A DNA stretch of 64,000 nucleotides from the NCBI RefSeq assembly GCF_005080685.1, contig NZ_CP039371.1, positions 4,898,001-4,962,000 of the forward strand. The letters are read 5' to 3'. The position numbers and the translations under genes are program-made. Positions within the stretch are counted from its first letter, which is position 1, and each line of letters begins with the position of its first letter. Positions 2-52,803 of the stretch are shown piece by piece. The DNA comes from Pseudomonas putida. GTDB lineage: Bacteria; Pseudomonadota; Gammaproteobacteria; Pseudomonadales; Pseudomonadaceae. The notes beneath the pieces are model-generated. The model was not told the DNA's origin and searched no databases. It worked only from the letters and a program-made list of their open reading frames with translations.

Positions 2-652
2 GCGCCGGGCTACGGCAACTCTGCAGCGCTGGCACAGGCCCGGCCTCGCGCCGAAGACTACGCCGGACGCCTGCAAAGCCTGCTCGATGCCCTGGATATC
101 GAACGCTGCGTGCTGGTGGGCCATTCGCTGGGCGCACTGACCGCCGCAGCCTTTGCCCAGCGCCACCCGCAGCGTGTCCAGCGGCTGGTGCTGCTCAGCC
201 CGGCACGCGGCTATGGCGCGCCGGCACAGGCCGAGCAAGGCCGCGCAGTGCGCGCCAAGCGCCTGGATGACCTGGCGCGGGTAGGGATCGCCGGCCTCGC
301 CGAAGCACGCAGCGCCAACCTGCTGTCACCTGCCGCCGACGCCCGCGCGCTGGCCTGGGTGCGCTGGAACATGGCCCGGCTCAACCCCCAGGGTTATCGC
401 CAGGCCATCGAGCTGCTGTGTGGCGATGCTTTGCTCGACCACCTGCCCCACAGCGTGCCCTGCGAGGTGCATTGCGGCAGTGCCGACGGCATCACCCGCC
501 CCGAGGACTGCCGCGCACTGGCTGAAGCCTTCGCGGCGCCCTTCAGCCTGATCAACGGCGCCGGCCATGCCTGCGCCATCGAACGACCCGAATTGGTGAC
601 CGAGCTCCTGGCCCGGGCACTGCAAGCCTCACTCACAGGTAGCCTGCAATGA
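2..652 (+). CDS. alpha/beta hydrolase, 5'-truncated by window edge
   Basis: The reading frame is open from base 2, so the true start lies upstream of the window; a GTG at 110 falls inside the fold and is not the start. The nucleophile elbow GHSLG lies about 40 codons in, the likely acid is the Asp of CGSADG, and the His of GAGHAC near the C-terminus completes a Ser-Asp-His triad. Next to ring-hydroxylating and extradiol dioxygenase genes, this class often hydrolyses the C-C bond of a meta-cleavage product, or an ester or lactone; that role is inference. Its stop overlaps the next start as ATGA (649-652), so translation is probably coupled to the IclR gene. Confidence 0.85.
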   Translation, partial: APGYGNSAALAQARPRAEDYAGRLQSLLDALDIERCVLVGHSLGALTAAAFAQRHPQRVQRLVLLSPARGYGAPAQAEQGRAVRAKRLDDLARVGIAGLAEARSANLLSPAADARALAWVRWNMARLNPQGYRQAIELLCGDALLDHLPHSVPCEVHCGSADGITRPEDCRALAEAFAAPFSLINGAGHACAIERPELVTELLARALQASLTGSLQ

Positions 653-1470
653 ACGATATGGATGCCTCGAAGGAAAACCAGGACAAGTACATTGTCCCCG
701 GCCTGGAGCGCGGCCTGTTGCTGCTGTGCGAATTCAGCCGGCAGAACCGCACCCTGACCGCACCGGAACTTGCGCGGCGCCTGTCACTGCCACGCTCGAC
801 CATCTTCCGCCTGCTGACCACCCTGGAAACCATGGGCTTCGTCAACCGCAGCGGCAACGAGTACCGCCTGGGCATGTCGGTGCTGCGCCTGGGCTTCGAA
901 TACCTGGCCTCGCTGGAGTTGACCGAACTCGGCCAACCGCTGCTGGCGCGGCTGTGCGACCACCTCAACTACCCGAGCAACCTGGTGGTCCGTGACGGTC
1001 GCTCGATCGTGTACGTGGCCAAGGTCTCGCCGCCCTCGGTGTTCTCCAGCGCTGTCACCGTCGGTACCCGCCTGCCCGCCCACGCCACCGTGCTTGGCCG
1101 GGTGCTGCTGGCCGACCTGAGCCTGGCCGAACTGCGCGAGCTGTACCCCGAGGAGCACCTGGAGCAGTACTCGCCAAGCACGCCGAAAACCGTGCTGGAA
1201 CTGTTCGACCTAGTCCAGGCCGATCGCCTGCGCGGTTATGTCAATGGCGAAGGTTTCTTCGAGTCGACCATCTCCACGGTCGCAGCGCCGGTTCGCGACG
1301 CCAGTGGCCGGGTGACTGCCGCCCTCGGCCTGACCATTCCCACCGTGCAGATCGGCCACGTCAACTTCGACAACCTGCTGGGCCAGGTACGCAGCAGCGC
1401 CGACGAACTGTCGCGGTTGCTCGACTACCGCCCAGGCTCGGGCCGCGTTACCGCGCTGATGAGGGATTGA
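649..1470 (+). CDS. IclR family transcriptional regulator
   Basis: A 273-aa protein of normal IclR length. Residues about 15-75 form the winged helix-turn-helix (LTAPELARRLSLPRSTIFRL) and residues about 90-262 the GAF-like effector domain, which contains the family-typical segments GTRLPAHATVLGRVLLA and AAPVRDASGRVTAALGL. IclR proteins usually control aromatic or short-chain acid catabolism and bind a pathway metabolite. The gene overlaps the upstream hydrolase stop by four bases and is followed one base later by the SDR, so it is embedded in the operon it probably controls. The effector is unknown. No clear operator is visible because the operon promoter lies left of the window. Confidence 0.9.
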   Translation: MNDMDASKENQDKYIVPGLERGLLLLCEFSRQNRTLTAPELARRLSLPRSTIFRLLTTLETMGFVNRSGNEYRLGMSVLRLGFEYLASLELTELGQPLLARLCDHLNYPSNLVVRDGRSIVYVAKVSPPSVFSSAVTVGTRLPAHATVLGRVLLADLSLAELRELYPEEHLEQYSPSTPKTVLELFDLVQADRLRGYVNGEGFFESTISTVAAPVRDASGRVTAALGLTIPTVQIGHVNFDNLLGQVRSSADELSRLLDYRPGSGRVTALMRD

Positions 1471-1471
1471 G

Positions 1472-2269
1472 ATGAATCTCTATTCACTGCATGACAGCAC
1501 CGCCATCGTCACCGGTGGCTCCTCCGGCATCGGCCTGGCGTGCGTCGAATCGCTGCTCGAAGCCGGCGCCCGGGTGGCCTTCTGCGGGCGCAACGGCGAA
1601 CGCCTGCGCAGCGCCGAAGCCAGCCTGCGCGAACGCTTCCCCCATGCGCGCCTGCTGGCACAGGTGTGTGACGTACTCGATGCCGAGGCGGTGCGCGCCT
1701 TCGCCGCGGCCAGCGAAGCCGAACTCGGCCCGGCACGGGTGCTGATCAACAACGCCGGCCAAGGCCGCGTGTCGACCTTTGCCGACACCACCGACGCCGC
1801 CTGGCAGGACGAGCTGCAACTGAAGTTCTTCTCGGTGATCAATCCGGTGCGGGCCTTCATGAACCAGCTGCAAGGCGAGGCCGGCGCGTCGATCGTCTGC
1901 GTCAACTCGCTACTGGCCAGCCAGCCCGAGCCGCACATGGTGGCGACCTCGGCGGCTCGGGCCGGGCTGAAGAACCTGGTGCGCTCGATGGCTTTCGAGT
2001 TCGCCGAACAGGACATCCGGGTCAACGGCATCCTCATCGGCCTGGTCGAGTCCGGCCAATGGCGCCGCCGTTTCGAAGCCCGTGACGAGCGGGCCCTGGA
2101 CTGGCGGCAATGGACCGCGCAACTGGCCCGCCGCAAGCAAATTCCCCTTGGCCGCCTGGGCCTGCCGAAAGAGGCCGCCCAAGCCATCTTGTTCCTCGCT
2201 TCGCCGCTGTCGTCCTACACCACCGGCAGTCATATCGATGTTTCTGGAGGCCTGTCCCGCCATGCGTAA
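1472..2269 (+). CDS. atypical short-chain dehydrogenase/reductase (SDR) lacking the usual Tyr/Lys
   Basis: A 265-aa classical-size SDR. The nucleotide-binding motif TGGSSGIG (about residues 14-21), the NNAG motif (about 91-94) and the C-terminal SSYTTGSHIDVSGG are all present. The active-site segment, normally YSASKAGL, reads TSAARAGL, so the catalytic Tyr and Lys positions carry Thr and Arg. It could be a divergent dehydrogenase with another proton relay or a non-catalytic paralogue. In a dioxygenase cluster the expected job would be oxidising a cis-dihydrodiol or an alcohol, but the missing residues weaken that. The ATG follows the IclR stop directly; the 3' end overlaps the next gene by 8 bases. 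Confidence 0.85.
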   Translation: MNLYSLHDSTAIVTGGSSGIGLACVESLLEAGARVAFCGRNGERLRSAEASLRERFPHARLLAQVCDVLDAEAVRAFAAASEAELGPARVLINNAGQGRVSTFADTTDAAWQDELQLKFFSVINPVRAFMNQLQGEAGASIVCVNSLLASQPEPHMVATSAARAGLKNLVRSMAFEFAEQDIRVNGILIGLVESGQWRRRFEARDERALDWRQWTAQLARRKQIPLGRLGLPKEAAQAILFLASPLSSYTTGSHIDVSGGLSRHA

Positions 2270-3944
2270 CGAAAACACTGTCACCGTGGGCGCGGTCATC
2301 ACCGCGTTTCTCGAGCAATGCGAGGTCAAGGCCGCATTCGGCGTGATCTCCATCCACAACATGCCGATCCTCGACGCCTTTGCCGTGCGCGGCAACATCC
2401 GCTTCGTCATGGCCCGCGGCGAAGCCGGCGCCACCAACATGGCCGACGCCTATGCCCGCAGCGTCGGCGGCCTGGGCGTGTGCCTGACCTCCACCGGCAC
2501 TGCCGCCGGCAACGCCGCCGGTGCCATGGTCGAAGCGCTGACCGCCGGCACGCCGCTGCTGCATATCACCGGCCAGATCGAAACGCCTTACCTGGACCAG
2601 GAGTTCGCCTACATCCACGAAGCACGCGATCAACTGACCATGCTCAAGGCCGTGTCCAAGGCCGCGTTCCGGGTGCGCAGCGTCGAGACCGCGCTGAGCA
2701 CCATCAAACTTGCCGTGCAGACCGCCCTGACCGCGCCGACCGGCCCGGTCAGCGTGGAAATCCCGATCGATATCCAGTCCACCTTCGTGCCCATGCCCGC
2801 CGACCTCACGCCGCTGCCGGTACCGGTCGCGGTGCCTGCACCGGAGGCGTTGGAGCAACTGGTCGCGCGCATGCTCAAAGCCAAGCGCCCGCTGCTGTGG
2901 CTCGGCGGCGGCGCGCGGCATGCCGGCAAGGCGGTCAAGCGCTTGCTGGACATGGGCGTGGGGGTCATCACCTCGACCCAGGGCCGCGGCGTGGTCAACG
3001 AAGACGACGAACGCTGCCTGGGCGCGTTTTCGCAAAATCGCCTGGTGGAAAACTTCATGCAGAGCTGCGACGCCCTGCTGATCGCAGGTTCGCGCCTGCG
3101 GAGCAACGAAACCTTCAAGTACGCCTTGAAACTGCCGGAAAACACCCTGCGCATCGACGCCAACCCGGCCATCGAAGGCCGCAGCTACTCCAGCGACCTG
3201 TTCGTCTGTGGCGATGCCGCGCTGACCCTCGACGCCCTCGCCGACCGCCTCGAAGGCCGCCTGCAGACCGACCCGCAGTTCCTTGTCGAACTCAAGGACG
3301 TGCGCAACAAGGCCCGCGCCGCGCTGATCGCCGACCTCGGCCCGTATGCCGCGATGGTCGAGCAACTGCAAGGCCAGACTGGGCGCAACTTCACCTGGGT
3401 ACGCGACGTGACCCTGTCCAACAGCATCTGGGGCAACCGTCTGCTCGACCTGTACCACCCGCAAGCCGGGGTACATGCCCTGGGCGGCGGCATCGGCCAG
3501 GGCCTGGCGATGGGTATCGGTGCCGGCATCGCCGCTGCCGAATACGACCCACAGCGCAAGGTGTTCGCCCTCGCCGGCGATGGCGGCTTCATCCTCAACC
3601 TAGGTGAGCTGGCGACCCTGGTGCAGGAAAAGGCCAACGTTGTGATCCTGCTGATGAACGACCAGCGCTACGGGGTGATCCGCAACATCCAGGACGCTAT
3701 CTATGGCGCCCGCCACGCCTACGTCGAGCTGCACACGCCGGACTACACCCAACTGGCCGAGTCCATGGGCATTCGCCATCGCCTGGTACGCGACCTCAAG
3801 GACTTCGGCGGCGTCCTGCAAGACGCCCTCGGCCAACCTGGGCCGTTCCTGCTGGAGGTGGACATGCTTGCGGTAGGCAACTTCGCCACCCAGTTCGCCG
3901 GCCCGCCCAACAGCGAGACCAAGGCCCAGAAGGCCACTGCCTGA
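2262..3944 (+). CDS. thiamine diphosphate-dependent enzyme (acetolactate synthase/decarboxylase family)
   Basis: A 560-aa ThDP enzyme with the usual three domains. The N-terminal Pyr domain carries the cofactor-activating Glu in ARGEAGATNMADAYAR (about residue 54). The C-terminal PP domain carries the Mg/ThDP motif starting AGDGGF near residue 437 and ending NDQRYG about 28 residues later. The start at 2262 has a good Shine-Dalgarno (GGAGG at 2246-2250) and overlaps the SDR stop; frame-open sequence further upstream is inside the SDR gene and is rejected. The family covers acetolactate synthases, benzoylformate decarboxylase and benzaldehyde lyase. No small subunit follows, so a catabolic 2-keto-acid decarboxylase or C-C lyase is more likely than Ilv synthesis. 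Substrate unknown. Confidence 0.85.
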   Translation: MRNENTVTVGAVITAFLEQCEVKAAFGVISIHNMPILDAFAVRGNIRFVMARGEAGATNMADAYARSVGGLGVCLTSTGTAAGNAAGAMVEALTAGTPLLHITGQIETPYLDQEFAYIHEARDQLTMLKAVSKAAFRVRSVETALSTIKLAVQTALTAPTGPVSVEIPIDIQSTFVPMPADLTPLPVPVAVPAPEALEQLVARMLKAKRPLLWLGGGARHAGKAVKRLLDMGVGVITSTQGRGVVNEDDERCLGAFSQNRLVENFMQSCDALLIAGSRLRSNETFKYALKLPENTLRIDANPAIEGRSYSSDLFVCGDAALTLDALADRLEGRLQTDPQFLVELKDVRNKARAALIADLGPYAAMVEQLQGQTGRNFTWVRDVTLSNSIWGNRLLDLYHPQAGVHALGGGIGQGLAMGIGAGIAAAEYDPQRKVFALAGDGGFILNLGELATLVQEKANVVILLMNDQRYGVIRNIQDAIYGARHAYVELHTPDYTQLAESMGIRHRLVRDLKDFGGVLQDALGQPGPFLLEVDMLAVGNFATQFAGPPNSETKAQKATA

Positions 3945-3954
3945 GGAACGCGCC

Positions 3955-4758
3955 ATGCTGCATATCACCATGATCGGCTGTGGCGCCATCGGCGTCGGCG
4001 TGCTGGAGCTGCTGGAGGCCGATCCGCAGTTGTGCGTCGATTCCGTGATCGCCTCGGCAGGTTCGGCAGAGCTGGTACGCCAGCGCCTGGCCAGCTTCAA
4101 ACGCCCGCCTCAGGTGCTGACGGCGCTGCCTGCCGACGCGCACCCCGACCTGCTGGTCGAGTGCGCAGGCCACCGCGCCATCGAGGAGCACGTCTTGCCG
4201 GCCCTGGAGCGCGGTATCGCCTGCCTGGTCGTCTCGGTGGGGGCGCTGTCGGAGCCCGGCCTGGTGGAACGCCTGGAGGCTGCCGCCGAACGTGGCAATA
4301 CCCGGATCGAACTGCTGCCGGGTGCCATTGGCGGTATCGATGCCCTGTCGGCCGCCAAGGTCGGTGGCCTGGATGCCGTCAGCTACACCGGCCGCAAGCC
4401 GGCCAAGGCCTGGAAGAACACGCCCGGTGAGCAGGCCTGTGACCTGGACAGCATCAGCGAAGCCACGGTGATCTTCCAGGGCAGCGCCCGCGAGGCTGCC
4501 CGCCTTTATCCAAAGAATGCCAACGTCGCGGCCACCCTGTCGCTGGCAGGCCTGGGCCTGGACCGCACGCAGGTGACCCTGATCGCCGACCCGCTGAGCG
4601 AGGAAAACGTGCACCAGGTCCAGGCCCGTGGCGCCTTCGGCGGTTTCGAGATGAGCCTGCGCGGCAAGCCTCTACAGGCCAACCCGAAGACCTCGGCGCT
4701 GACCGTGTACAGCGTGGTCCGCGCCCTGGGCAACCACGCCCATGCCATTTCCATCTAG
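3955..4758 (+). CDS. nadX: L-aspartate dehydrogenase (NadX family)
   Basis: A 267-aa NAD(P)-dependent amino acid dehydrogenase. The Rossmann motif GCGAIG is at about residues 9-14, the domain signature LLVECAGHRAIEEHVLPAL follows, and the ENVHQV segment contains the His taken as catalytic in this family. Biochemically studied members (Pseudomonas aeruginosa, Ralstonia) interconvert L-aspartate and iminoaspartate/oxaloacetate. Its place between a ThDP enzyme and an aldehyde dehydrogenase, away from NAD biosynthesis genes, suggests a catabolic role, possibly on an amine or imine intermediate; this is inference. The gap to the preceding gene is 10 bases, so it is co-transcribed. From memory, P. 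aeruginosa nadX also sits beside a decarboxylase, an SDR and an IclR gene. Confidence 0.8.
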   Translation: MLHITMIGCGAIGVGVLELLEADPQLCVDSVIASAGSAELVRQRLASFKRPPQVLTALPADAHPDLLVECAGHRAIEEHVLPALERGIACLVVSVGALSEPGLVERLEAAAERGNTRIELLPGAIGGIDALSAAKVGGLDAVSYTGRKPAKAWKNTPGEQACDLDSISEATVIFQGSAREAARLYPKNANVAATLSLAGLGLDRTQVTLIADPLSEENVHQVQARGAFGGFEMSLRGKPLQANPKTSALTVYSVVRALGNHAHAISI

Positions 4759-4768
4759 GGGATTGCCC

Positions 4769-6259
4769 ATGACACTGGAACAAAGCTTACCCATCTGCAT
4801 CGCCGGCACCTGGCGCCAGGGCGGTGGCGAGCGCTACGCCACCTGCTACCCGGCCACGGGCGAGCCGGTGGCCTGGCTCAACGCTGCCAGCCTGGACGAC
4901 GTCGAAGCCGCGGTGCAGGGTGCCCACCAGGCCTTCCTGCACAGCGGCTGGGCGCAGCGCAAGCCGCATGAACGCGCCGCCGTGCTGCTGCGCATCGCTG
5001 CGCTGATCCGCGAGCGCGCCGAGGAACTGGCGCAGTTGCAACGCCAGGACAATGGCAAGCCGATCGCCGAGACCCGCGCCCTGGTGGCCAGCGCCGCCGG
5101 CACCTTCCAGTTTTTCGCCGCAGCCTGCGAAACATTGGAAGAAACCATCACCCCATCGCGTGGCGACTTCCTCAGCATGAGCGTGTACGAGCCGATGGGC
5201 GTGGTCGCGGCGATCACGCCATGGAACTCGCCGATCGCCAGCGAAGCGCAAAAGGTCGCGCCGGCCCTGGCTGCCGGCAACGCCGTGGTGATCAAGCCTG
5301 CAGAAATCACGCCGCTGCTGGCCCTGCAACTGGCGCGCATCTGCGACGATGCCGGCCTGCCCAAGGGGCTGGTCAGCGTGCTGCCGGGCAAGGGCTCGCT
5401 GCTCGGCGACGCACTGACCCGCCACCCGCTGGTCAAGCGCGTGTCGTTCACCGGCGGCACCCGCACCGGCAAGCACATCGCCCATATCGCCGCCGACAAG
5501 ATGATGCCGGTGTCGCTGGAGTTGGGCGGCAAGTCGCCGACCATCGTGCTCGACGATGCCGACCTCGACCATGCCGTGGCCGGGGTGCTGTACGGCATCT
5601 TCAGCTCGTCCGGCGAAGCCTGTATCGCAGGTTCCCGGTTGTTCGTCGCCCGCGCGCTGTACGAGCCGTTCATGGCCCGCCTGAGCGCCGCCGCCGCGCA
5701 ACTGCGGGTGGGCGACCCGGCCGACGAACGCACGCAGATGGGCCCGCTGATCAGCGCCGCGCACCGCGAGTCGGTGGAGCGCTACGTAGCCCTGGGCCTG
5801 GCCGAAGGCGGCCGCCTGCGCCTGGGCGGCGAGCGCCCGCGTGGCGGGATGTTCGACCATGGCTACTTCTACCCACCGACCATTCTCGAAGGCCTGGGTA
5901 ACCAGCAGCAGGTGTGCCAGGAAGAGATCTTCGGCCCGGTGCTGGTGGCCATGCCTTTCGACAGCGAGCAAGCACTGATCGAGCAGGCCAACGACAGCCT
6001 GTACGCACTGGCCGCCGGTATCTGGAGCCGCGACTACAAGCGCGCCTGGGCGCTGGGGCGCAAGCTCCAGGCCGGCACGGTCTGGGTCAACACCTACAAG
6101 CAGTTTTCCATCTCGACGCCCTTCGGCGGCTGGCGTGACAGCGGCCTGGGCCGCGAAAAAGGCCGCCTGGGCATCCTGCAGTACATGGAACAGAAAAGCC
6201 TCTACTGGGGCATGAACGAACAACCGCTGGCCTGGGCCGGCGTGGAGGCAGGGCAATGA
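4769..6259 (+). CDS. NAD(P)-dependent aldehyde dehydrogenase
   Basis: A 496-aa ALDH-superfamily enzyme. The general-base Glu is in LELGGKSPTIVL (about residue 251) and the nucleophile Cys in SSGEACIAGS (about residue 285); TPWNSPIA and FTGGTRTGKHIA form the cofactor site. The start at 4769 is chosen because AGGGG lies just upstream; an earlier in-frame ATG at 4742 is inside nadX. The stop overlaps the next gene's start (ATGA, 6256-6259). It probably oxidises the aldehyde made by the neighbouring ThDP enzyme or by ring-cleavage product breakdown; the exact substrate cannot be read from sequence. Confidence 0.88.
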   Translation: MTLEQSLPICIAGTWRQGGGERYATCYPATGEPVAWLNAASLDDVEAAVQGAHQAFLHSGWAQRKPHERAAVLLRIAALIRERAEELAQLQRQDNGKPIAETRALVASAAGTFQFFAAACETLEETITPSRGDFLSMSVYEPMGVVAAITPWNSPIASEAQKVAPALAAGNAVVIKPAEITPLLALQLARICDDAGLPKGLVSVLPGKGSLLGDALTRHPLVKRVSFTGGTRTGKHIAHIAADKMMPVSLELGGKSPTIVLDDADLDHAVAGVLYGIFSSSGEACIAGSRLFVARALYEPFMARLSAAAAQLRVGDPADERTQMGPLISAAHRESVERYVALGLAEGGRLRLGGERPRGGMFDHGYFYPPTILEGLGNQQQVCQEEIFGPVLVAMPFDSEQALIEQANDSLYALAAGIWSRDYKRAWALGRKLQAGTVWVNTYKQFSISTPFGGWRDSGLGREKGRLGILQYMEQKSLYWGMNEQPLAWAGVEAGQ

Positions 6260-7224
6260 GCGTACTGGGCATCGACGAAGTCACCTATGGGGTCGAAGAC
6301 CTGGCCACCTGTGCGCGCTTCTTCGGCGATTGGGGCCTGACCCTGGTCAGCGAAGCACCCGACGAGGTCGTCTTCGAAACCCTCAATGGCTGCCGCGTAG
6401 TGCTGGCCGCCATCGACAAACCGGGGCTACCAGCGGCCATCGAGCCCGGCTCGACGGTACGCGAAGTCGTCTGGGGCGTAGCCAGCCAGGCCGACCTTGC
6501 GCTGTACAGCCAGCGCATCGCCAACGACCCAGGCTTCGTCGAAGGCAATGGCCGGGTCGGCTGCACCGACCCCAACGGCCTGGCGATCCGCTTGCAGGTC
6601 ACCCGCAAGCGGCCACTGGAGCTCGAGTGCAGCGGCCACAACACCTGGCAGACCAAGGGCCGGATCAACAAACCGGCACCCGTCTACGAGCGCGCCACGC
6701 CCATCGAAGTGGGCCACGTGGTGTTCTTCGTCAAGGACGTCAACGCCTGCGAAGCGTTCTACCACGAGCGCTTCGGCTTCCAGGCCTCGGACCGCTACCC
6801 CAACCGCGGCGCGTTCCTGCGCACCGCCGAGGAAGGCGGCCACCACGACCTGTTCATGCTGCAACTGCCGGCTCCGCGTGCCGGGCTGAACCACGTCGCC
6901 TTCACCGTGCGCGACCTGCACGAGGTGTTCGGCGGTGGCATGCACATCTCGCGCTGCGGCTGGGCCACCGAAATCGGCCCGGGCCGCCACCCGGTGTCCT
7001 CGGCATTCTTCTGGTACTTCAAGAACCCGGCCGGCGCACTGGTGGAGTACTACGCCGACGAAGACCAACTGACCGGCGAGTGGCAACCCCGCGAATTCGA
7101 ACCCGGGCCGACCGTCTTCGCCGAATGGGCGATTGCCGGCGGCATCGATGGCAATACCCGGCGCCAGCAGCATGTCGAGGCGCCACAAGGCAAGTTCCTC
7201 ACCGACAAACCAAAGAACAACTGA
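6256..7224 (+). CDS. two-domain type I extradiol ring-cleavage dioxygenase (VOC superfamily)
   Basis: A 322-aa protein made of two VOC repeats, the architecture of catechol 2,3-dioxygenase-type enzymes. The C-terminal repeat holds the full 2-His-1-carboxylate iron site: His in EVGHVVFFV (about 154), His in GLNHVAFTV (about 213) and Glu in LVEYYAD (about 264). The N-terminal repeat lacks it, as is normal. Known members open catecholic rings next to the diol using Fe(II) and O2. Coupled to the ALDH gene by an ATGA overlap and followed by a Rieske oxygenase, it indicates an aromatic or polycyclic ring-opening pathway. A non-oxygenase VOC activity remains possible, but the intact metal ligands argue for a real dioxygenase. 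Confidence 0.82.
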   Translation: MSVLGIDEVTYGVEDLATCARFFGDWGLTLVSEAPDEVVFETLNGCRVVLAAIDKPGLPAAIEPGSTVREVVWGVASQADLALYSQRIANDPGFVEGNGRVGCTDPNGLAIRLQVTRKRPLELECSGHNTWQTKGRINKPAPVYERATPIEVGHVVFFVKDVNACEAFYHERFGFQASDRYPNRGAFLRTAEEGGHHDLFMLQLPAPRAGLNHVAFTVRDLHEVFGGGMHISRCGWATEIGPGRHPVSSAFFWYFKNPAGALVEYYADEDQLTGEWQPREFEPGPTVFAEWAIAGGIDGNTRRQQHVEAPQGKFLTDKPKNN

Positions 7225-7234
7225 GGGCCATCCC

Positions 7235-7462
7235 ATGAGCGACACCGAGGTTTACCTGCAACCCCATCAGGCGCGCAAACGCCCCAACACGCCGTTCGAG
7301 GACCTGCTCGGCGATTCCATCGAGCGCGCCTACGGCAGCGGCGTGAGCGAATTGAGCGAGCTGCTCGCCCACCTCGACCTGGCCGGCCCGCCCTGCCCGC
7401 TGACCAGCGGCGAGTGGACCGAAGACGCATTCAAAACCCTGATGGCACGGCTGGGCGAATGA
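7235..7462 (+). CDS. small 75-aa protein between the dioxygenase genes
   Basis: A 75-aa acidic protein beginning MSDTEVYLQPHQARKR, with an N-terminal segment related to (RKRPNTPFEDLLGDSIERAY) and a C-terminal acidic helix. It starts 10 bases after the extradiol dioxygenase and ends 20 bases before the Rieske oxygenase, so it is an operon member. I recall similar proteins beside Rieske oxygenases being named 'recombinase-like helix-turn-helix' proteins; I cannot confirm that here. It has no signal peptide, no membrane span and no cysteines, so it is not a ferredoxin. It might be an oxygenase accessory or assembly factor; function unknown. Confidence 0.7.
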   Translation: MSDTEVYLQPHQARKRPNTPFEDLLGDSIERAYGSGVSELSELLAHLDLAGPPCPLTSGEWTEDAFKTLMARLGE

Positions 7463-7482
7463 CCCGCTGGAGGTAGAACACG

Positions 7483-8517
7483 ATGAACATGCAAATATCC
7501 GTGGACCCTGTTGAGCAACACCTGGCCAATGGCCTCAAAGACCTCTGGTTCCCCGTGCTGCCGTCGGAGCTGTTGACCGACCGGCCACGCTCGATCCGTC
7601 GCCTGGGCTACAAGATCGCCCTGTGGCGCGACAACGATGGCCGCGTCCACGCCCTCGAGGACCACTGCCCGCACCGAGGTGCGCCGCTGTCCCAGGGGCC
7701 GGTATTGGGTGACCGCCTGCAATGCCCTTATCACGGCATCGAAGTGCGCTGCGATGGCACCGTGACCAAGGTCCCCGGCAGCCCAGGCTGCAAGCTCGAA
7801 GGCAGCCGCCCGACGCGGATGTTCCATGCCCGCGAAGCCGCAGGGGCGATCTTCCTGTTCAACGCCACCGACCCGCACATTGCCGAACCGCCGGAGCTGG
7901 TGCTGCCTGAGGAGCTGACCTCGCCCGAGTGGAGCCACTTCCTCTGCTACACCGAGTGGAAGGGCGATTACCGCTACGTGCTGGACAACGTCATGGACCC
8001 GATGCACGGCACCTACCTGCACAAGATGTCGCACTCGATGAGCGAGGGCGAGGCGACCGCCAAGTTCGTCACCCGCGACACCGAGCAGGGTTTCTTCTTC
8101 GAGAAGGAAGGCCAGCGCGGGGTGAACTTCGACTGGACCGAATTCTTCGACAACGGCTGCCATTGGCTGCGCCTGGAAATCCCCTACCCGAAAACCGGCG
8201 GTCCAGGCGGCAACTTCACCATCATCGGCAGCTATACCCCGAGCAGCCGCGCCCTGTCGGCGGTGTTCCACTGGCGTGCACGGCCGCTCACCGGCTGGCA
8301 ACGCGACACCTGGCGGTTCCTCTACAAGAACCGCCTGGAAGCACGTCACTGGGCGGTGCTGGAACAGGACCGGGTGCTGCTGGAGTTCATGGAGTTCGAC
8401 GCCAACCAACGCGAGAACCTCTACCAGCACGACCTGGGCGTGGTGCGCCTGCGCCGCTTCCTCAAGGGAAAGGCCAAGGAGCAGTTGGCCCTGATCGAAG
8501 CGAAACAACTGGCCTGA
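7483..8517 (+). CDS. Rieske non-haem iron aromatic oxygenase, alpha subunit
   Basis: A 344-aa Rieske oxygenase. The [2Fe-2S] ligands are CPH (about residues 62-64) and, 16 residues later, CPYH (about 81-84). The mononuclear iron site is DNVMDPMHGTYLH, the D-x2-H-x4-H pattern that binds catalytic Fe. Length and layout resemble single-component alpha subunits such as VanA-type O-demethylases, which need no beta subunit, and none is encoded nearby. It would take electrons from the reductase encoded 8 bases downstream. Reactions of the group include O- and N-demethylation and monohydroxylation; which one applies is unknown. A Shine-Dalgarno GGAGGT precedes the ATG. Confidence 0.9.
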   Translation: MNMQISVDPVEQHLANGLKDLWFPVLPSELLTDRPRSIRRLGYKIALWRDNDGRVHALEDHCPHRGAPLSQGPVLGDRLQCPYHGIEVRCDGTVTKVPGSPGCKLEGSRPTRMFHAREAAGAIFLFNATDPHIAEPPELVLPEELTSPEWSHFLCYTEWKGDYRYVLDNVMDPMHGTYLHKMSHSMSEGEATAKFVTRDTEQGFFFEKEGQRGVNFDWTEFFDNGCHWLRLEIPYPKTGGPGGNFTIIGSYTPSSRALSAVFHWRARPLTGWQRDTWRFLYKNRLEARHWAVLEQDRVLLEFMEFDANQRENLYQHDLGVVRLRRFLKGKAKEQLALIEAKQLA

Positions 8518-8525
8518 GGTGCACG

Positions 8526-9485
8526 ATGTCCAATTCCTCCGTTATCAGCGCCCTGGTGCATACCCTGCGCTACGAGGCCGATGGCATCATCAGCGTCGAG
8601 CTGCGCCCGTGGGGCGATACCGTGTTCGCGCCGTTCGAGGCGGGCGCGCATATCGACCTGCACCTGCCCAACGGCCTGGTGCGCAGCTACTCGTTGCTCA
8701 ATGCGCCCAGCGAACAGGGGCGCTACGTGGTCGGCATCCTGCGTGACCGCGCCAGCCGCGGCGGCTCGCGCTATGTGCACGAGCAGTTGCGGGTGGGCAT
8801 GGAGCTGAGGATTTCCCAGCCTCGCAACAACTTCGCCCTCGACACCCACGCCAGTCATAGCGTGCTGGTGGCCGGCGGGATTGGCATCACGCCGATCTTC
8901 TGCATGTTCAACCGGCTGCTGGCGCTGGGTCGCTCGGCCGAGCTGATCTACTGCGCGCGCTCGCGGCGGGAGGCGGCGTTGCTGGAGCCGCTCGCCGCGC
9001 ACGGGGCGAAGGTGATCTACCACTTCAACGATGAGAAAGACGGGTTCCCGGACCTGGCCAAGTATCTGGCGGGGCGCTCGGTCGATAGCCACTTCTACTG
9101 TTGCGGGCCGACACCGATGCTCGACGCGTTCGAGCAGACGTGCGAGCAACTGGGCTATGCCCATGCGCATATCGAGCGCTTCAGCGCGGTGGAAGTGGAG
9201 GCTTCGCAGGATGCCCAGGCGAGCTATAGCGTCGAGCTGAGCAAGTCGGGCAAGACGCTTAGCGTCGAGCCTGGGTTGAACCTGCTGGACGTGCTGCTCG
9301 AGGCGGGTTGCGACATCGACTACAGCTGCCGCGAGGGCGTCTGCGGTTCGTGCGAGACGCGTGTGCTCGAAGGCGACATCGATCACCGCGACGGAGTACT
9401 GACCAAGGCCGAGCGCGCGGCCAATGGCTCGATGATGGTGTGTGTGTCCGGGTGCAAGAGCAAGCGCCTGGTGCTCGACCTTTGA
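8526..9485 (+). CDS. PDR/VanB-type oxygenase reductase (FMN, NAD, [2Fe-2S])
   Basis: A 319-aa three-domain reductase. It has an N-terminal flavin-binding barrel with RSYSLLNAPS (about 55-64), a NAD-binding domain with VAGGIGITPIFCM, and a C-terminal plant-type ferredoxin domain with CREGVCGSC and a fourth Cys in MMVCVSGC. This is the phthalate dioxygenase reductase/VanB order. It passes electrons from NADH to the Rieske oxygenase encoded directly upstream. The ATG at 8526 begins 8 bases after the oxygenase stop; the same frame stays open upstream inside the oxygenase gene, but only this start fits the domain layout. Confidence 0.9.
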   Translation: MSNSSVISALVHTLRYEADGIISVELRPWGDTVFAPFEAGAHIDLHLPNGLVRSYSLLNAPSEQGRYVVGILRDRASRGGSRYVHEQLRVGMELRISQPRNNFALDTHASHSVLVAGGIGITPIFCMFNRLLALGRSAELIYCARSRREAALLEPLAAHGAKVIYHFNDEKDGFPDLAKYLAGRSVDSHFYCCGPTPMLDAFEQTCEQLGYAHAHIERFSAVEVEASQDAQASYSVELSKSGKTLSVEPGLNLLDVLLEAGCDIDYSCREGVCGSCETRVLEGDIDHRDGVLTKAERAANGSMMVCVSGCKSKRLVLDL

Positions 9486-9492
9486 ATCGGTG

Positions 9493-9590
9493 CCGGCCCC
9501 TTCGCGGGACAAGCCCGCTCCCACAGGTTAGTCACGATAGCTGATACCTGTGCTGTACCTGTGGGAGCGGGCTTGTCCCGCGAAGAGGCC
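9493..9590. repeat. REP pair, GCGGG-type
   Basis: Two inverted copies (9493-9528 and 9557-9590) of the P. putida-type palindrome with core GCGGGACAAGCCCGC, tails facing inward, separated by about 28 bases. It lies between the reductase stop and the porin gene. Confidence 0.9.
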
Positions 9591-9725
9591 AGCACATCCA
9601 CCCCACAACCAAAATAACAAACCCCAGTCTTTCGCTTTCCACAGCCACTCCCGCTCAACACCCCCGCCCAGGGGTGAGGGATGGCTGTTGCCTGCGAAAA
9701 CTGCTCCAACCTTGCAGGGCACAGC

Positions 9726-10955
9726 ATGAAACGATTTGTGATTTCCCTTGGTATGGTTTTAGGCAGTTGCACCACCTTCGCATCCGAGCCCGGCCCCGCC
9801 GCCCCGGACCAGCCGCCGACGGCCCGCAAGCCGTTCCCGCACATCGCCTGGCGTAGCGACGACGGCCAGAGCAGCCTGGACATCGGCGGCGCGCTGCGGG
9901 TCAACTACCGCGACGAGCACTGGGACACCACCGAGAACAACGGCCGCTTCCTCTTCGATACCTTCCGCCTCGACGTCCAGGCCACGCACCGGCAGTTCTA
10001 CAGCGATGTCGGCTACTGGTTCCAGGACGACGGCAAGCGCTCCATCGACCGCGGCTTCGTCGGCTATCGCTTCGACGAACGCTCCAACCTGCAACTGGGC
10101 GCCCCGTTCAAACCGTTCGGCCTGGAGCCCTACCCACAGTTCGGCTGGAGCTATCACATCCCGTTCTTCATGGGCTATGGCGTCAGCGCCGGCACGGGCC
10201 TGAAATACAGCTACAAGGACAGCGCCTGGGACCTGCAACTGGGCTATTTCCCACGCATGCTGCCGACAGGCATCCGCTACTCACCGGAGGTCGGCCGCTA
10301 CAGCGACCTGGACGACAACGCCGTGGCCTTCACCCAGTCGCGCCAGGACAACGAAAAGCGCCACCAGGTCAACGCCCGGGTCGCCCGCACCTTTACCGGC
10401 GAAGGCTGGAAAACCGAAATCGGCGCCTCGCTGGCGGCCGCCGACCTGTACAACGCCACCACCCATGACGATGGCGACTACTGGGCTGGCGGCATCCATG
10501 CGCTGCTGAGCAGCGGCCCGTGGACCGTGACCGGCCAGGCCATCCGCTATGAATACGATCCGAAGAACCCGGCAGGCGTGAGCGACGACGCCGTGCTGAT
10601 GGGCGGCAACGGCCTGACCCCGGCCTACCTGATCGCCTCGAAGGCCACCATCGCCGCGCTCAACGTCGGCTACGACATCTACACCCCACGCCTGGGGCAG
10701 TTGAAGAAGGTCAAGTTGTACACCGACTACAGCCGCATGATGAAGGACAAGAGCGGCTGGGACGATTCGCAGATGTTCACGGTGGGCGCGCAGTTCCTGG
10801 CGATGCCGATCATGGCCTGGATCGACCTGACCTGGGCACGCAATGCCAACCCGTTTGGCGGCGCGCAGAACGGTACCGGGTGGACCAGTACCAATTCGGT
10901 GGGGAGCAACGACTGGTACTACCGGACCAATATCAACATCGGCTACTACTTCTGA
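9726..10955 (+). CDS. outer-membrane porin
   Basis: A 409-aa protein with a signal peptide (MKRFVISLGMVLGSCTTFAS), then alternating aromatic-rich beta segments typical of a porin barrel and a terminal Phe (INIGYYF), the usual outer-membrane assembly signal. Segments such as LDIGGALRVNYRD and LQLGAPFKPFGLEPY are typical of pseudomonad substrate-specific porins of the OprO/OprP-like fold; it does not look like OprD. It is the last gene of the catabolic cluster and probably admits the substrate, but a 240-base gap with a REP pair separates it from the reductase, so it may have its own promoter. An upstream in-frame ATG (9681) is rejected because it would bury the signal peptide. Confidence 0.82.
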   Translation: MKRFVISLGMVLGSCTTFASEPGPAAPDQPPTARKPFPHIAWRSDDGQSSLDIGGALRVNYRDEHWDTTENNGRFLFDTFRLDVQATHRQFYSDVGYWFQDDGKRSIDRGFVGYRFDERSNLQLGAPFKPFGLEPYPQFGWSYHIPFFMGYGVSAGTGLKYSYKDSAWDLQLGYFPRMLPTGIRYSPEVGRYSDLDDNAVAFTQSRQDNEKRHQVNARVARTFTGEGWKTEIGASLAAADLYNATTHDDGDYWAGGIHALLSSGPWTVTGQAIRYEYDPKNPAGVSDDAVLMGGNGLTPAYLIASKATIAALNVGYDIYTPRLGQLKKVKLYTDYSRMMKDKSGWDDSQMFTVGAQFLAMPIMAWIDLTWARNANPFGGAQNGTGWTSTNSVGSNDWYYRTNINIGYYF

Positions 10956-12912: not shown

Positions 12913-13848
12913 TCAGAACAACCAGCGATACAACAGGAATGCGACCACCACCGCCAGCACCGGCCGCAGAATGCGGTAGGCCTTCGGATTGGCACGCTTG
13001 AACTGCTTCACGCGGGTGCTGATCTTGTTGCTGAAGCGCTTGCTCCAGGCGTACGCCTGGTTGATCCCGCCCACGCGCTCGTCATCGGTGTTCTGCGGCG
13101 CGGTGGCGCGGCCGAGGAAGGCACTGACCTTGCGGTTGATGCGGGTCATCAACGGACTGCTCAGCGGGCGCTCGATGTCGCAGAACAGGATCACCCGGGT
13201 CACGTCGGTTTCGTTCTTCACCCAATGCACGAAGGTTTCGTCGAACATCACATCCTCGCCATCACGCCAGGCGTAGGGCTGACCATCGACGTAGATGCGG
13301 CAAGCGTCGGAGTTCGGCGTCGACAGGCCCAGGTGATAACGCAGGGAGCCGGCGAACGGGTCGCGGTGCGGGTTGAGATGGCTGCCGCCAGGCAGCAGGG
13401 CGAACATCGCGCCCTTGACGTTGGGGATGCTGCTGACCAGTTCGACGGTTTTCGGGCACAGCGCCTCGGCCGAGGGCAGCGGTTTGTCGTACCACTTCAG
13501 GTAGAAGCGCTTCCAGCCCTTCTTGAAGAAGGAGCCGAAGCCCGCATCGTTGTCCTTCTCCGCCGCACGGATGTACCCCTCGTCGAACAGGCGCATGGCC
13601 TCCTCGCGGATCACCTGCCAGTTGTCCTTGAGCACGTCCAGCTCGGGAAAGCGCTGACGGTCCAGGTAGGGCTTGGACGGTACGCCAGAAAACAGGTACA
13701 TCAGGCTGTTATAAGGGGCGAACAGCGCCGAATGGTTGACGAACTGGCGCAATACCGGCAGGCGCGCCTTGCCACGCAGGTGCACGAACAGCACACTGGC
13801 GAAGAACACCAGCAGGACACCCGCCTTGGCGAGGAAGGAAAAGGTCAT
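12913..13848 (-). CDS. lpxO: lipid A hydroxylase LpxO (Asp/Asn beta-hydroxylase family)
   Basis: A 311-aa Fe(II)/2-oxoglutarate dioxygenase. An N-terminal membrane anchor (about residues 5-24) and a C-terminal hydrophobic tail (VLAVVVAFLLYRWLF) flank the cytoplasmic catalytic domain. Iron ligands are visible as HRD in LNPHRDPF and His in DETFVHWV; Arg in TRVILF would bind 2-oxoglutarate. LpxO adds a 2-hydroxyl to the secondary acyl chains of lipid A, as in Salmonella and Pseudomonas. It stands alone, with an AAGGAG ribosome site before the ATG at 13848. Another Asp/Asn hydroxylase substrate is possible, but anchor plus catalytic domain fit LpxO well. Confidence 0.85.
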   Translation of the reverse strand: MTFSFLAKAGVLLVFFASVLFVHLRGKARLPVLRQFVNHSALFAPYNSLMYLFSGVPSKPYLDRQRFPELDVLKDNWQVIREEAMRLFDEGYIRAAEKDNDAGFGSFFKKGWKRFYLKWYDKPLPSAEALCPKTVELVSSIPNVKGAMFALLPGGSHLNPHRDPFAGSLRYHLGLSTPNSDACRIYVDGQPYAWRDGEDVMFDETFVHWVKNETDVTRVILFCDIERPLSSPLMTRINRKVSAFLGRATAPQNTDDERVGGINQAYAWSKRFSNKISTRVKQFKRANPKAYRILRPVLAVVVAFLLYRWLF

Positions 13849-49234: not shown

Positions 49235-50848
49235 ATGTCAGGCAAATTCAAGAAACAGCTGTCATTGCTCGACCTCACCTTCATCGGCCTCGGCGCCATC
49301 TTCGGCTCCGGCTGGTTGTTCGCCGCCAGCCACGTCTCGGCCATCGCCGGCCCGGCCGGTATCCTCTCCTGGTTTCTCGGCGGTTTCGCCGTGCTGTTGC
49401 TGGGCATCGTCTACTGCGAGCTCGGCGCCGCCCTGCCACGCGCCGGTGGCGTGGTGCGCTACCCGGTGTACTCGCATGGCCCGCTGCTCGGCTACCTGAT
49501 GGGCTTCATCACCCTGATCGCCTTCTCCAGCCTGATCGCCATCGAAGTGGTCGCCTCGCGCCAGTATGCCGCGGCCTGGTTTCCCGGGCTGACCCAGGCC
49601 GGCTCCAGCGACCCTACCGCACTCGGCTGGCTGGTGCAGTTCGCCTTGCTCGGGCTGTTCTTCCTGCTCAACTACCGCAGCGTGAAGACCTTCGCCAAGG
49701 CCAACAACCTGGTCAGCGTGTTCAAGTTCATCGTGCCGCTGCTGGTGATCGGTGTGCTGTTCACCTTCTTCAAACCGGAAAACTTCACCGTCCAGGGCTT
49801 TGCCCCGTTCGGCTTGTCCGGCGTGGAAATGGCCGTGTCGGCCGGCGGCATCATCTTCGCCTACCTGGGCCTGACGCCGATCATCTCGGTGGCCAGCGAG
49901 GTGAAGAACCCGCAACGCACCATTCCCATCGCGCTGATTCTCTCGGTGCTGCTGTCCACGGCGATCTACGCCTTGCTGCAACTGGCTTTCCTCGGCAGCG
50001 TGCCGACCGAAATGCTCGCCAATGGCTGGGCCGCGGTGACCAAGGAGCTGGCCCTGCCCTACCGCGATATCGCCCTGGCCCTGGGCGTGGGCTGGCTGGC
50101 CTACCTGGTGGTGGCAGACGCGGTGATCTCGCCCAGCGGCTGCGGCAACATCTACATGAACGCCACCCCACGCGTGGTCTACGGCTGGGCCCAGACCGGC
50201 ACCTTCTTCAGGTACTTCACCCGCATCGACGCGCAATCGGGCATCCCGCGCCCGGCACTGTGGCTGACCTTCGGCCTGGCGGTGTTCTGGACCCTGCCGT
50301 TCCCATCCTGGGAAGCCTTGATCAACGTCGTCTCGGCAGCGCTGGTGCTGAGCTACGCCGTGGCCCCGGTCAGCGTCGCAGCCCTGCGCCGCAACGCGCC
50401 CGACATGCCGCGCCCGTTCCGGGTCAAGGGCATGAATGTGCTCGGCCCGCTGTCGTTCATCATCGCCGCGCTGATCGTCTACTGGTCCGGCTGGAACACC
50501 GTGTCGTGGCTGCTGGCCCTGCAGATCGTGATGTTCGTGCTGTACCTGCTGTGCGGCCGCTTCGTGCCGACCCAGCACCTGTCGCTGGCCCAGCAAGTGC
50601 GCTCGTCGGCCTGGCTGATCGGCTTCTATGGCGTGACCATCCTGCTTTCCTGGCTGGGCAGCTTCGGCGGCCTGGGCGTGATCGGTCACCCGCTCGACAC
50701 CGTGGCCGTGGCCGCCTGCGCCCTGGGCATCTACTACTGGGGCGCCGCGACCGGCGTGCCGGCCCACCTGGTGCGCCTGGAAGGCGAGGACGAAAGCGAA
50801 GCCTCAGCCGACACCTATGCCGGCCACCCTGCAGCCGCCGCCTCCTGA
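49235..50848 (+). CDS. APC superfamily amino-acid permease (probable hydroxyproline uptake)
   Basis: A 537-aa permease with about twelve to thirteen membrane helices, beginning with the unwound-helix motif [33 protein letters not shown] follows helix 6 as in APC transporters. It is first in the hydroxyproline operon, 23 bases before the epimerase, and so is the likely uptake system for trans-4-hydroxyproline; this is inference from position. A Shine-Dalgarno-like AAAGGCGA lies before the ATG. Confidence 0.85.
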
Positions 50849-50871
50849 ACTTTCACGCAATGGACAACCCC

Positions 50872-51798
50872 ATGAAACAGATCCACGTCATCGACTCGCA
50901 TACCGGCGGTGAACCGACCCGCCTGGTGATGAAAGGTTTCCCGGCACTGCAGGGTCGCAGCATGGCCGAGCAGCGCGACGAACTGCGCGAGCTGCACGAC
51001 CATTGGCGGCGCGCCTGCCTGCTGGAGCCACGCGGCAACGATGTGCTGGTGGGCGCGTTGTACTGCCCGCCGGTCTCGGCAGATGCCACCTGCGGGGTGA
51101 TCTTCTTCAACAACGCCGGCTACCTGAACATGTGCGGCCACGGCACCATCGGCCTGGTTGCCTCCCTGCAGCACCTGGGCCTGATCGAACCCGGCGAGCA
51201 CAGGATCGACACCCCGGTCGGCCAAGTCAGCGCGACCCTGCACGAAGACGGCGCGATCACCATCGGCAACGTGCCGTCCTATCGCTACCGCCAGCAGGTT
51301 GCGGTCGAGGTGCCCGGCCATGGCGTGGTGCATGGCGATATCGCCTGGGGTGGCAACTGGTTCTTCCTGGTTGCCCAACACGGCCAGCGCATCGAGCTTG
51401 CCAACCGCGATGCCCTCACCGACTACACCTGGGCCATGCTCAAGGCCCTCGAAGCACAGGGCATCACCGGCGAAAACGGTGCGCCCATCGACCATGTCGA
51501 GCTGTTCGCCGACGACCCCGACGCCGACAGCCGCAACTTCGTCATGTGCCCGGGCAAGGCCTACGACCGCTCGCCTTGCGGCACCGGTACCAGCGCCAAG
51601 CTGGCGTGCCTGGCCGCCGACGGCAAGCTCGGCGAAGGCCAGACCTGGGTCCAGGCCAGTATCACCGGCAGCCAGTTCCAGGGCCGCTACCAACGCGACG
51701 GCGAACGCATTCGCCCGTTCATCACCGGCCGCGCCTACATGACCGCCGACAGCACCCTGCTGATCGACGAACAGGATCCGTTCGCCTGGGGCATCTGA
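50872..51798 (+). CDS. lhpA: 4-hydroxyproline 2-epimerase
   Basis: A 308-aa proline-racemase-family enzyme that converts trans-4-hydroxy-L-proline to cis-4-hydroxy-D-proline. Two catalytic Cys residues are present, in [10 protein letters not shown] (about residue 88) and [11 protein letters not shown] (about residue 236), together with [13 protein letters not shown] at the N-terminus. Both cysteines present distinguishes it from the dehydratase type with Thr. The start at 50872 gives the usual length; an ATG four codons earlier is possible. Second gene of the pathway operon. Confidence 0.92.
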
Positions 51799-51840
51799 CC
51801 CGGCTTTTTTCCCAATTGAATAGCGCTAGGAGTGACAACC

Positions 51841-52788
51841 ATGACCGACAACATCTTCACCGGCTGCATGCCCGCCCTGATGACCCCGTGCACCACCGAG
51901 CGCAAGCCGGACTTCGACGCCCTGGTGCGCAAGGGCCGCGAACTGATCGAGGCCGGCATGAGCGCCGTGGTCTACTGCGGATCGATGGGCGACTGGCCGC
52001 TGCTGACCGAGGCCGAGCGCCAGGAAGGCGTGGCGCGCCTGGTAGCCGCCGGCATTCCGACCATCGTCGGCACGGGCGCTGTGAACACCCGTGAGGCGGT
52101 ATCGCATGCCGCCCATGCCGCCAAGGTCGGCGCCGCTGGCCTGATGGTCATCCCCCGGGTGCTCAGCCGCGGCGCCTCGCTGATCGCCCAGAAGCACCAT
52201 TTCTCGGCGATCCTCGCGGCCGCGCCGAAACTGCCAGCGGTGATCTACAACAGCCCCTACTACGGCTTCGCCACCCGCGCCGACCTGTTCTTCGAACTGC
52301 GTCGCGAATACCCCAACCTGATCGGCTTCAAGGAGTTCGGCGGCGGCGCCGACCTGCGCTATGCCGCCGAGCACATCACCTCCAAGGACGACGACGTGAC
52401 GCTGATGGTCGGCGTCGACACCCAGGTGGTGCATGGCTTCGTCAACTGTGCGGCCACCGGCGCCATCACCGGTATCGGCAACGCACTGCCGCGTGAAGTG
52501 CTGCAACTGGTGAGCCTGAGCAAGCAGGCCGCCAAGGGCGACGCCCGCGCTCGCCGCCTGGCGCGTGAACTGGAGTCGGCGCTGGCAGTGCTGTCGTCGT
52601 TCGATGAAGGCTGCGACCTGGTGCTGTACTACAAGCACTTGATGGTGCTCAACGGCGACCGCGAGTACGGCCTGCATTTCAACGAAACCGATGTCCTCAC
52701 CGACGCCCAGCGCAACTATGCCGAGCAGCAGTACGCGCTGTTCCGCACCTGGTACGCCAGCTGGTCGGCGGAGCAGAACCTGGCCTGA
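51841..52788 (+). CDS. lhpC: DapA-family enzyme, probable 1-pyrroline-4-hydroxy-2-carboxylate deaminase
   Basis: A 315-aa class I aldolase-fold enzyme. YCGSMGDWPLL replaces the usual GTTGE loop, the Tyr is in VIYNSPYYGF and the Schiff-base Lys in LIGFKEFGGGADL. In the known hydroxyproline route a DapA-family deaminase turns pyrroline-4-hydroxy-2-carboxylate into 2-ketoglutarate semialdehyde and ammonia. Position between the epimerase and the semialdehyde dehydrogenase makes that role highly probable. AGGAG lies 8 bases before the ATG at 51841. Confidence 0.87.
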   Translation: MTDNIFTGCMPALMTPCTTERKPDFDALVRKGRELIEAGMSAVVYCGSMGDWPLLTEAERQEGVARLVAAGIPTIVGTGAVNTREAVSHAAHAAKVGAAGLMVIPRVLSRGASLIAQKHHFSAILAAAPKLPAVIYNSPYYGFATRADLFFELRREYPNLIGFKEFGGGADLRYAAEHITSKDDDVTLMVGVDTQVVHGFVNCAATGAITGIGNALPREVLQLVSLSKQAAKGDARARRLARELESALAVLSSFDEGCDLVLYYKHLMVLNGDREYGLHFNETDVLTDAQRNYAEQQYALFRTWYASWSAEQNLA

Positions 52789-52803
52789 GGCGCAGAGCAC
52801 ACG

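Follow-up and report, generated by a model that had tools for sequence, protein, structure and literature searches.

Among the described systems closest to the locus considered here is the bacterial breakdown of kynurenate (4-hydroxyquinoline-2-carboxylate), the kynurenate or quinoline pathway by which Pseudomonas degrades tryptophan and which is reportedly owed to Hayaishi, Taniuchi and co-workers. Its steps and enzyme activities date from the biochemistry of the 1960s and lead through a 7,8-dihydrodiol to 7,8-dihydroxykynurenate, extradiol cleavage of the latter between C8 and C8a to 5-(3-carboxy-3-oxopropenyl)-4,6-dihydroxypicolinate, reduction of the side chain, decarboxylation to a formylethyl compound and oxidation to the carboxyethyl compound; glutamate, alanine and acetate were the end products in crude extracts. 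We analyzed a cluster of 16 genes in Pseudomonas putida, eleven of which lie on the plus strand at the left end (2..10955) of the window, a stretch of 64,000 nucleotides from a 6.6 Mb genome (contig NZ_CP039371.1, positions 4,898,001 to 4,962,000), and found one enzyme class for each of these six steps: a Rieske oxygenase, a first short-chain dehydrogenase/reductase (SDR1), a VOC dioxygenase, a second such reductase (SDR2), a thiamine diphosphate (ThDP)-dependent enzyme and an aldehyde dehydrogenase (ALDH). With a probability of roughly 0.6, the cluster is a catabolic set for a quinoline-2-carboxylate, most likely kynurenate. The broader statement that the substrate is N-heteroaromatic is the best reading and can be made with good confidence, while the fuller one, in which kynurenate-pathway genes are joined by an undescribed lower route to glutarate and L-aspartate and by a molybdenum hydroxylase feeding in quinaldate, is tentative and falls somewhat short of even odds. 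The accessible part of PMC5610271 states that a degradation pathway had been suggested in P. fluorescens, citing the 1963 paper of Taniuchi and Hayaishi on 7,8-dihydroxykynurenate, and a 1961 tracer study is cited in the accessible part of PMC11354673. A gene assignment for this cluster was not found in one open-access library, most subscription papers lying outside the search; EC 1.14.99.2 was sought as an orphan enzyme in PMC1940265, in whose accessible text only 1.14.99.22 and 1.14.99.24 are present, and that source supports nothing here.

The genes, their families, the active-site motifs, the synteny and the modules are observed; from them we infer the substrate, each reaction and its place in the order, the end products, regulation and uptake as follows. 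The Rieske alpha subunit (7483..8517; PF00355, 74 bits) carries both the 2Fe-2S motif CxH...Cx2H (C62-H64/C81-H84) and the mononuclear iron motif Dx2Hx4H (D172-x2-H175-x4-H180), and is followed by a VanB-like reductase (8526..9485) whose profile matches place an NAD-binding domain ahead of a C-terminal 2Fe-2S domain. Together, they would act as a kynurenate 7,8-dioxygenase, yielding the 7,8-dihydrodiol that SDR1 would convert to 7,8-dihydroxykynurenate. SDR1 is read as the dihydrodiol dehydrogenase because it stands directly after the Rieske gene, the expected spot, in 13 of 81 loci, all from outside Pseudomonas; in the Pseudomonas loci it lies upstream within the operon, and it is present in 43/43 Pseudomonas-type loci. 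The type I (VOC) extradiol dioxygenase (6256..7224), a candidate 7,8-dihydroxykynurenate 8,8a-dioxygenase, would then cut the C8–C8a bond to give 5-(3-carboxy-3-oxopropenyl)-4,6-dihydroxypicolinate. Its H-H-E iron site is intact (H154, H213, E264), with H245 sitting in GPGRH; the alignment with 3b59 covers all three iron ligands with the same residues, and that with homoprotocatechuate dioxygenase covers the last two. SDR2 (1472..2269; PRK07062 type, NF005468, 444 bits against a cut-off of 266) would reduce the double bond of the propenyl side chain, although which of the two SDRs serves which step is our own assignment. The ThDP-dependent enzyme (2262..3944; PRK07064 type, NF005470, 867 bits against a cut-off of 495) would decarboxylate the 4-aryl-2-oxobutanoate side chain, and the ALDH (4766..6259; Pfam Aldedh, 556 bits; no NCBIfam model at its cut-off among the matches listed, 25 of 43) would oxidize the formylethyl side chain to 5-(2-carboxyethyl)-4,6-dihydroxypicolinate. 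The ThDP gene starts at the ATG at 2262, not with the long GTG open reading frame at 2082, and its product retains E54, GDGGF at 439 and N466. Just ahead of the Rieske gene, a 75-residue HTH_62 protein (7235..7462; PF20552, 89 bits) recurs within 250 bp 5′ of it in 74 of 75 cases, counted over the Rieske genes of the 81-locus set; it may serve Rieske proteins of this subfamily as an accessory or maturation factor.

For the lower half of the route, the opening of the pyridine ring to glutarate and iminosuccinate, we know of no published step. The cupin and the alpha/beta hydrolase might carry out ring-amide hydrolysis and C4–C5 cleavage, the cupin step being a guess, and NadX would reduce the iminosuccinate to L-aspartate, capturing the ring nitrogen. 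NadX is placed in this half because iminosuccinate is the substrate that aspartate dehydrogenase reduces, and the hydrolase is taken as the C–C cleaver because it resembles the C–C hydrolases of ring-cleavage routes. Of the C–C or meta-cleavage product (MCP) hydrolase type by profile and solved-relative matches (BphD/MhpC/HsaD/PcaD-like), its gene starts some 215 bp to the left of the window edge, so that only the 3′ part lies within it (2..652); the full-length protein has 288 residues, its best solved relative is BphD (67 bits), with enol-lactonase, HsaD and MhpC also matched, and S114, D234 and H261 form a candidate triad. The cupin gives weak matches, the best to the quercetinase QueD (27.5 bits); an attempt to derive its function from structure was abandoned, the AlphaFold model having a mean pLDDT of 59.9, too low for use. 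The product of 3955..4758 is, by sequence, a member of the NadX L-aspartate dehydrogenase family (NF009827, 464 bits against a cut-off of 226). It is 42% identical to the NadX of a Klebsiella cluster, whose termini are those encoded by the KpnAspDH primers given in the accessible part of PMC5554190. There, KpnAspDH and DelAspDH were purified and aminated oxaloacetate at 26.5 and 32.8 U/mg, respectively; the enzymes were studied for aspartate production, gene context aside. Aspartate dehydrogenase activity is, then, the literature's for the cluster ortholog KpnAspDH, not for the window protein, which would share it by analogy.

The kynurenate pathway shares with the cluster the succession of ring dihydroxylation, dehydrogenation of the diol, extradiol cleavage, reduction of the side chain, decarboxylation and aldehyde oxidation, but is not known to include the cupin, hydrolase and NadX steps. 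Classical catechol meta-cleavage shares the Rieske oxygenase, the VOC extradiol enzyme, the ALDH and the MCP-type hydrolase, whereas this cluster has a ThDP enzyme and NadX instead of 2-oxopent-4-enoate hydratase and aldolase; neither of the latter is among the 16 conserved genes, the search having covered these and not the rest of the genome. The Lum pathway for lumichrome and riboflavin in Nocardioides simplex, as far as the available text of PMC12746152 goes, shares a molybdenum hydroxylase, a Rieske enzyme, an extradiol dioxygenase and a ThDP decarboxylase, all serving a single N-heteroaromatic route. It differs in its two-subunit ThDP enzyme acting on the heterocycle, its alpha/beta Rieske enzyme, its cytochrome P450 and amide hydrolases and its products, acetoacetate and pyruvate, and no NadX was seen in that text. 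The P450 LumU, the amide hydrolases and the two-subunit ThDP decarboxylase are all absent from the conserved 16-gene set; this vitamin B2 pathway was rejected as the identity of the cluster and is kept as an analogy.

The layout of the locus bears out an earlier note, made from the letters of the window, on most points. That note had described eleven co-oriented genes with overlaps or short gaps, and open reading frame and profile searches of the window confirm them all: the gaps between neighbors are −4, 1, −8, 10, 7, −4, 10, 20, 8 and 195 bp, the porin gene, 195 bp off, being the exception. Its Rieske subunit, VanB-type reductase and intact H-H-E site are upheld by the motifs and profiles given above, and the enzymes it named are present; it left out the IclR regulator, SDR2 and the HTH_62 protein, and its hydrolase gene is not complete within the window, whose edge cuts it. 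Five further genes of the cluster appear just beyond that edge when 12 kb are read leftward, encoding an ABC transporter (an ATPase, an NMT1/SsuA-type substrate-binding protein and a permease), SDR1 and the cupin, whose gene ends 4 bp ahead of the hydrolase gene. The whole cluster thus has 16 genes, with about 4.2 kb of it outside the window. A nitrogen-containing aromatic substrate, as the note suggested, is still the best reading; the release of a 2-keto acid and an amine is not, as neither would be released as such from kynurenate. The note had also set the ThDP enzyme and NadX outside standard meta routes. They are not odd additions, however: the one would decarboxylate a 2-oxo-acid side chain once the ring is cleaved and the other would trap the ring nitrogen as aspartate, which fits two halves of one route. 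In sum, the observation was right and understated: known enzyme families stand in an unusual and conserved combination.

The 16 genes are conserved as a unit. Scanning with the ThDP protein yielded 46 loci. Of 43 Pseudomonas-type loci (two of which bear other titles), 40 have all 16 genes in an unchanged order and the other three run off their contigs; P. fluorescens FW300-N2E3 (L051) is one strain with the full set. Such identity of order argues that the cluster is not a chance assembly. The full order recurs in 8/8 loci taken from further genera or species within the family, one of which is probably the same genome as L010, and L010 and L248 are probably one genome. In the wider set, all 11 core genes are found in 61 of 81 loci and the ALDH gene in 78 of the 81, all holding the ThDP protein; these loci are not independent of one another, some stretches are cut off early, and presence was called by identity thresholds chosen for this analysis. 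The count excludes L134 (a repeat of L047), L140 (where the VOC stands at 39%) and L048 (only 3.6 kb long), and the misses of L127, L156 and L159 are uninformative, as these end before further genes could appear. The distribution is patchy: 12 of 149 genomes at genus level and 26 of 398 at family level have a NadX ortholog, and the VOC enzyme occurs in 25 of 268 genomes in the family of L053 (titled a Burkholderiaceae bacterium) and 13 of 399 of its order. Of 369 genomes sampled over the whole class, the one with the ThDP protein is that of the window itself. The versions in Klebsiella, Acinetobacter and Caballeronia replace the VanB-like reductase with a ferredoxin and a flavin adenine dinucleotide (FAD) reductase, and Novosphingobium has a rearranged version, in which the ferredoxin was not found and the FAD-reductase match is only 34%. 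The comparison of neighborhoods of the nadX/ThDP/Rieske trio proposed earlier thus yields the 16-gene order in Pseudomonas-type loci and modular variants in other groups, and the expectation of a conserved but unassigned cluster holds as far as the literature search goes. The similar group in P. aeruginosa, mentioned there, holds in part: the protein database has a NadX under that name (P0198) that is 79% identical to the window NadX, but its neighborhood was not seen, the family sample drawn having no identical match (best 89%), and eight relatives were read instead. In A. baumannii, A1S_0956 to A1S_0958, annotated as L-aspartate dehydrogenase, betaine-aldehyde dehydrogenase and acetolactate synthase and given values of 2.2 to 2.4 in a list of mucin-responsive genes in the accessible part of PMC5757984, would by the order of their annotations be this cluster. 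Two local variants may be recorded here: an extra same-strand frame of about 380–420 codons between the VOC and HTH_62 genes in L030, L042, L245 and others, and three matches in a row to the permease query (87–91%) in L031, possibly from local duplication or an assembly effect.

In some loci, the cluster is split in two. Five loci (L130, L131, L132, L136 and L137) have the Rieske–VOC–ALDH–ThDP–SDR2 part without NadX, hydrolase and cupin, and L158 likewise lacks those three. A NadX query of 13 genomes without NadX near the VOC gene, those of the six loci and of seven relatives, found an ortholog elsewhere in 12, at 61–68% identity and never less than 16 kb from the VOC gene. In 12/12 of these, the hydrolase and an IclR gene accompany NadX in one block; the cupin adjoins it in 9 and lies about 1 to 2 kb off in 2, and in 1 the contig starts at the hydrolase. 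The distance between the two parts is 16 kb in G718 and more than 1 Mb in five genomes; in six, they lie on separate contigs. Because they are found together apart from the upper part, NadX, the hydrolase and mostly the cupin constitute a lower module. In one genome, which shares an identical VOC with a named Delftia acidovorans protein, the two blocks are neighbors, the upper running reductase–Rieske–HTH_62–VOC–ALDH–ThDP–SDR2–IclR–SDR1 and the lower NadX–IclR–hydrolase–cupin. As a separate observation, L214 and L215 (G715 and G717) have a second NadX paralog (46%) and, about 4 kb from it, a different molybdenum hydroxylase, L215 with a ThDP protein (59%) and an ALDH (65%) near it as well, and in G710, G712, G715, G717 and G718 such a paralog lies 15–49 kb from tryptophan dioxygenase; the L214/L215 neighborhood may belong to a sister route that handles some other pyridine or quinoline acid.

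A molybdenum hydroxylase accompanies the upper genes in some loci and would fit the 4-hydroxylation of quinaldate to kynurenate. One ortholog group (large subunits 63–87% identical) occurs beside the upper genes in 4 of 75 loci, a count that still includes L134 and L140: in L006, directly adjoining the Rieske gene in L158 and L162, and about 5 kb away in L157; two others of the 75 have only distant superfamily members. L006, on plasmid pNK84 of Caballeronia sp. NK8, has beside its complete cluster a second, shorter one (21.2–32 kb) consisting of porin, ferredoxin, HTH_62, Rieske, ThDP, VOC, molybdenum hydroxylase and CoxG, its ferredoxin and HTH_62 accessions being the same as in the first copy. 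Over its full length, the NK8 FAD subunit aligns with those of carbon monoxide dehydrogenase and 6-hydroxypseudooxynicotine dehydrogenase, but only in pieces with 4-hydroxybenzoyl-CoA reductase beta, which argues for an oxidative hydroxylase. Naming the substrate by nearest solved structure was tried and rejected as non-diagnostic. At a threshold of at least 67% identity, four of the 12 cluster genomes have the ortholog and none of the 68 others does (one-sided Fisher p 0.0003), a contrast that is confounded by relatedness, genome size and query origin and is weaker than the p-value suggests because three of the four positives were already known from cluster neighborhoods. The 80 genomes compared were 12 of the 13 order-level VOC carriers (G517 excluded) and 68 stepwise picks from the same draw; weaker matches (40–44%) occur in G1015 among the 68 and in G942, G959 (a second copy) and G1133 among the 12. 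The only newly found positive is the Delftia genome described above, where the gene stands apart from the cluster, with MarR-like and TctC-like neighbors that resemble, by eye, those beside it in L157.

Several observations weigh against kynurenate. SDRs are unusual as enone reductases, and the choice of kynurenate as the substrate comes from sequence comparison. In the 81-locus count, SDR2 is missing from L047, L158, L162 and L163, ALDH from L047 and L163, and SDR1 from L130, L136, L137 and L158, while G922, the exception among the 13 genomes queried, gives no NadX match with E values up to 1e-30. The nearest solved relative of the molybdenum large subunit is 4-hydroxybenzoyl-CoA reductase alpha (438 bits), ahead of quinoline 2-oxidoreductase (268), and the confounding of the genome comparison noted above counts on the same side. 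Tryptophan dioxygenase (PF03301) is absent from the window's own genome (0/1); among cluster genomes it was found in 22 of 39 and 8 of 12 in two samples, with no linkage to the cluster, lying about 130 kb or more away where the contig is shared (8 genomes) and otherwise on another contig. Linkage to the tryptophan-to-kynurenine genes was counted as supportive, not as required. According to the accessible part of PMC4938989, kynurenate builds up in a P. aeruginosa kynU mutant, reaching 100 uM at 24 h, although the cluster region of that strain was not seen. The mucin response of A1S_0956 to A1S_0958 gives no pointer to kynurenate in particular.

The substrate could instead be a different N-heteroaromatic carboxylate, such as xanthurenate, quinaldate, 8-hydroxyquinaldate or an alkaloid-derived quinoline, handled in the same way by cleaving the benzenoid ring, decarboxylating with the ThDP enzyme and forming aspartate. 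The association with the molybdenum hydroxylase and the NadX block point to a ring nitrogen beside a carboxylated carbon rather than to kynurenate alone, and clusters without SDR1 (the four named above) could use an already hydroxylated ring; yet kynurenate is the natural compound whose described steps use all the enzyme classes in order, and SDR1 is kept throughout the Pseudomonas-type loci, so that we regard this option as unlikely. A homocyclic aromatic acid of the lignin or methoxylated type, undergoing O-demethylation, meta-cleavage and side-chain decarboxylation with NadX only fixing ammonia into oxaloacetate, seems very unlikely. It draws on the VanB-like reductase and on the relatives of the Rieske subunit, whose nearest solved enzyme is the dicamba O-demethylase DdmC (72 bits, over residues 17–183 only) and which matches VanA_C at 31 bits, but it fits poorly with the missing hydratase and aldolase, with a NadX that travels with the hydrolase and cupin, with the molybdenum hydroxylase neighbors and with SDR1 following the Rieske gene in 13 loci. 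Least of all would we expect the ThDP protein to be a carboligase or C–C hydrolase, resembling acetolactate synthase or cyclohexane-1,2-dione hydrolase, so that the route diverges after ring cleavage. Its nearest solved sequences are indeed acetolactate synthases (158 bits), with cyclohexanedione hydrolase at 99 bits; against this stand the much stronger match to its own model PRK07064, the next named-reaction model, which is that of a 2-oxo acid decarboxylase (5-guanidino-2-oxopentanoate decarboxylase, 244 bits, below its cut-off of 500), and the near-constant presence of the ALDH gene.

If kynurenate is indeed the substrate, genomes and metagenomes could be scored for the removal of a neuroactive and immune-active tryptophan product (PMC11354673 and PMC5770815, each in its accessible part), which is also made by yeast (PMC5610271) and P. 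aeruginosa (PMC4938989), according to the accessible parts of these papers. Genes would be supplied for the enzyme activities described in the 1960s, and aspartate dehydrogenases so far studied as catalysts would gain a catabolic reason, which would explain those of Klebsiella, Acinetobacter and Pseudomonas. Should the quinoline be a different one, a conserved N-heteroaromatic pathway of 16 genes, its substrate yet to be named, would still become directly testable.

The remaining features of the locus concern regulation and uptake. The IclR-family protein (649..1470; PcaR/PcaU/PobR-like, TIGR02431 at 174 bits, below the cut-off of 285) would control the genes, and the ABC transporter and the porin would take up the substrate. 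The putative outer-membrane porin (9681..10955, its start more likely at 9726) keeps its position across loci; the Pfam search of its product gave no family, and the label, which the earlier note also used, is owed to a signal-like N-terminus and to the place of the gene. Between it and the reductase gene, an intergenic stretch (9486..9680) has an inverted repeat resembling repetitive extragenic palindromic (REP) elements at about 9497–9585, read from the sequence. A scan around the porin gene gave zero promoter-like sites and one terminator-like site, neither count exceeding that in shuffled sequence; the gene may have a separate promoter. Downstream of the cluster, 12913–13848 on the minus strand encodes a likely aspartyl/asparaginyl beta-hydroxylase, judged from the look of the protein, and farther on, 49235–54459 on the plus strand holds an amino acid permease and another ALDH.

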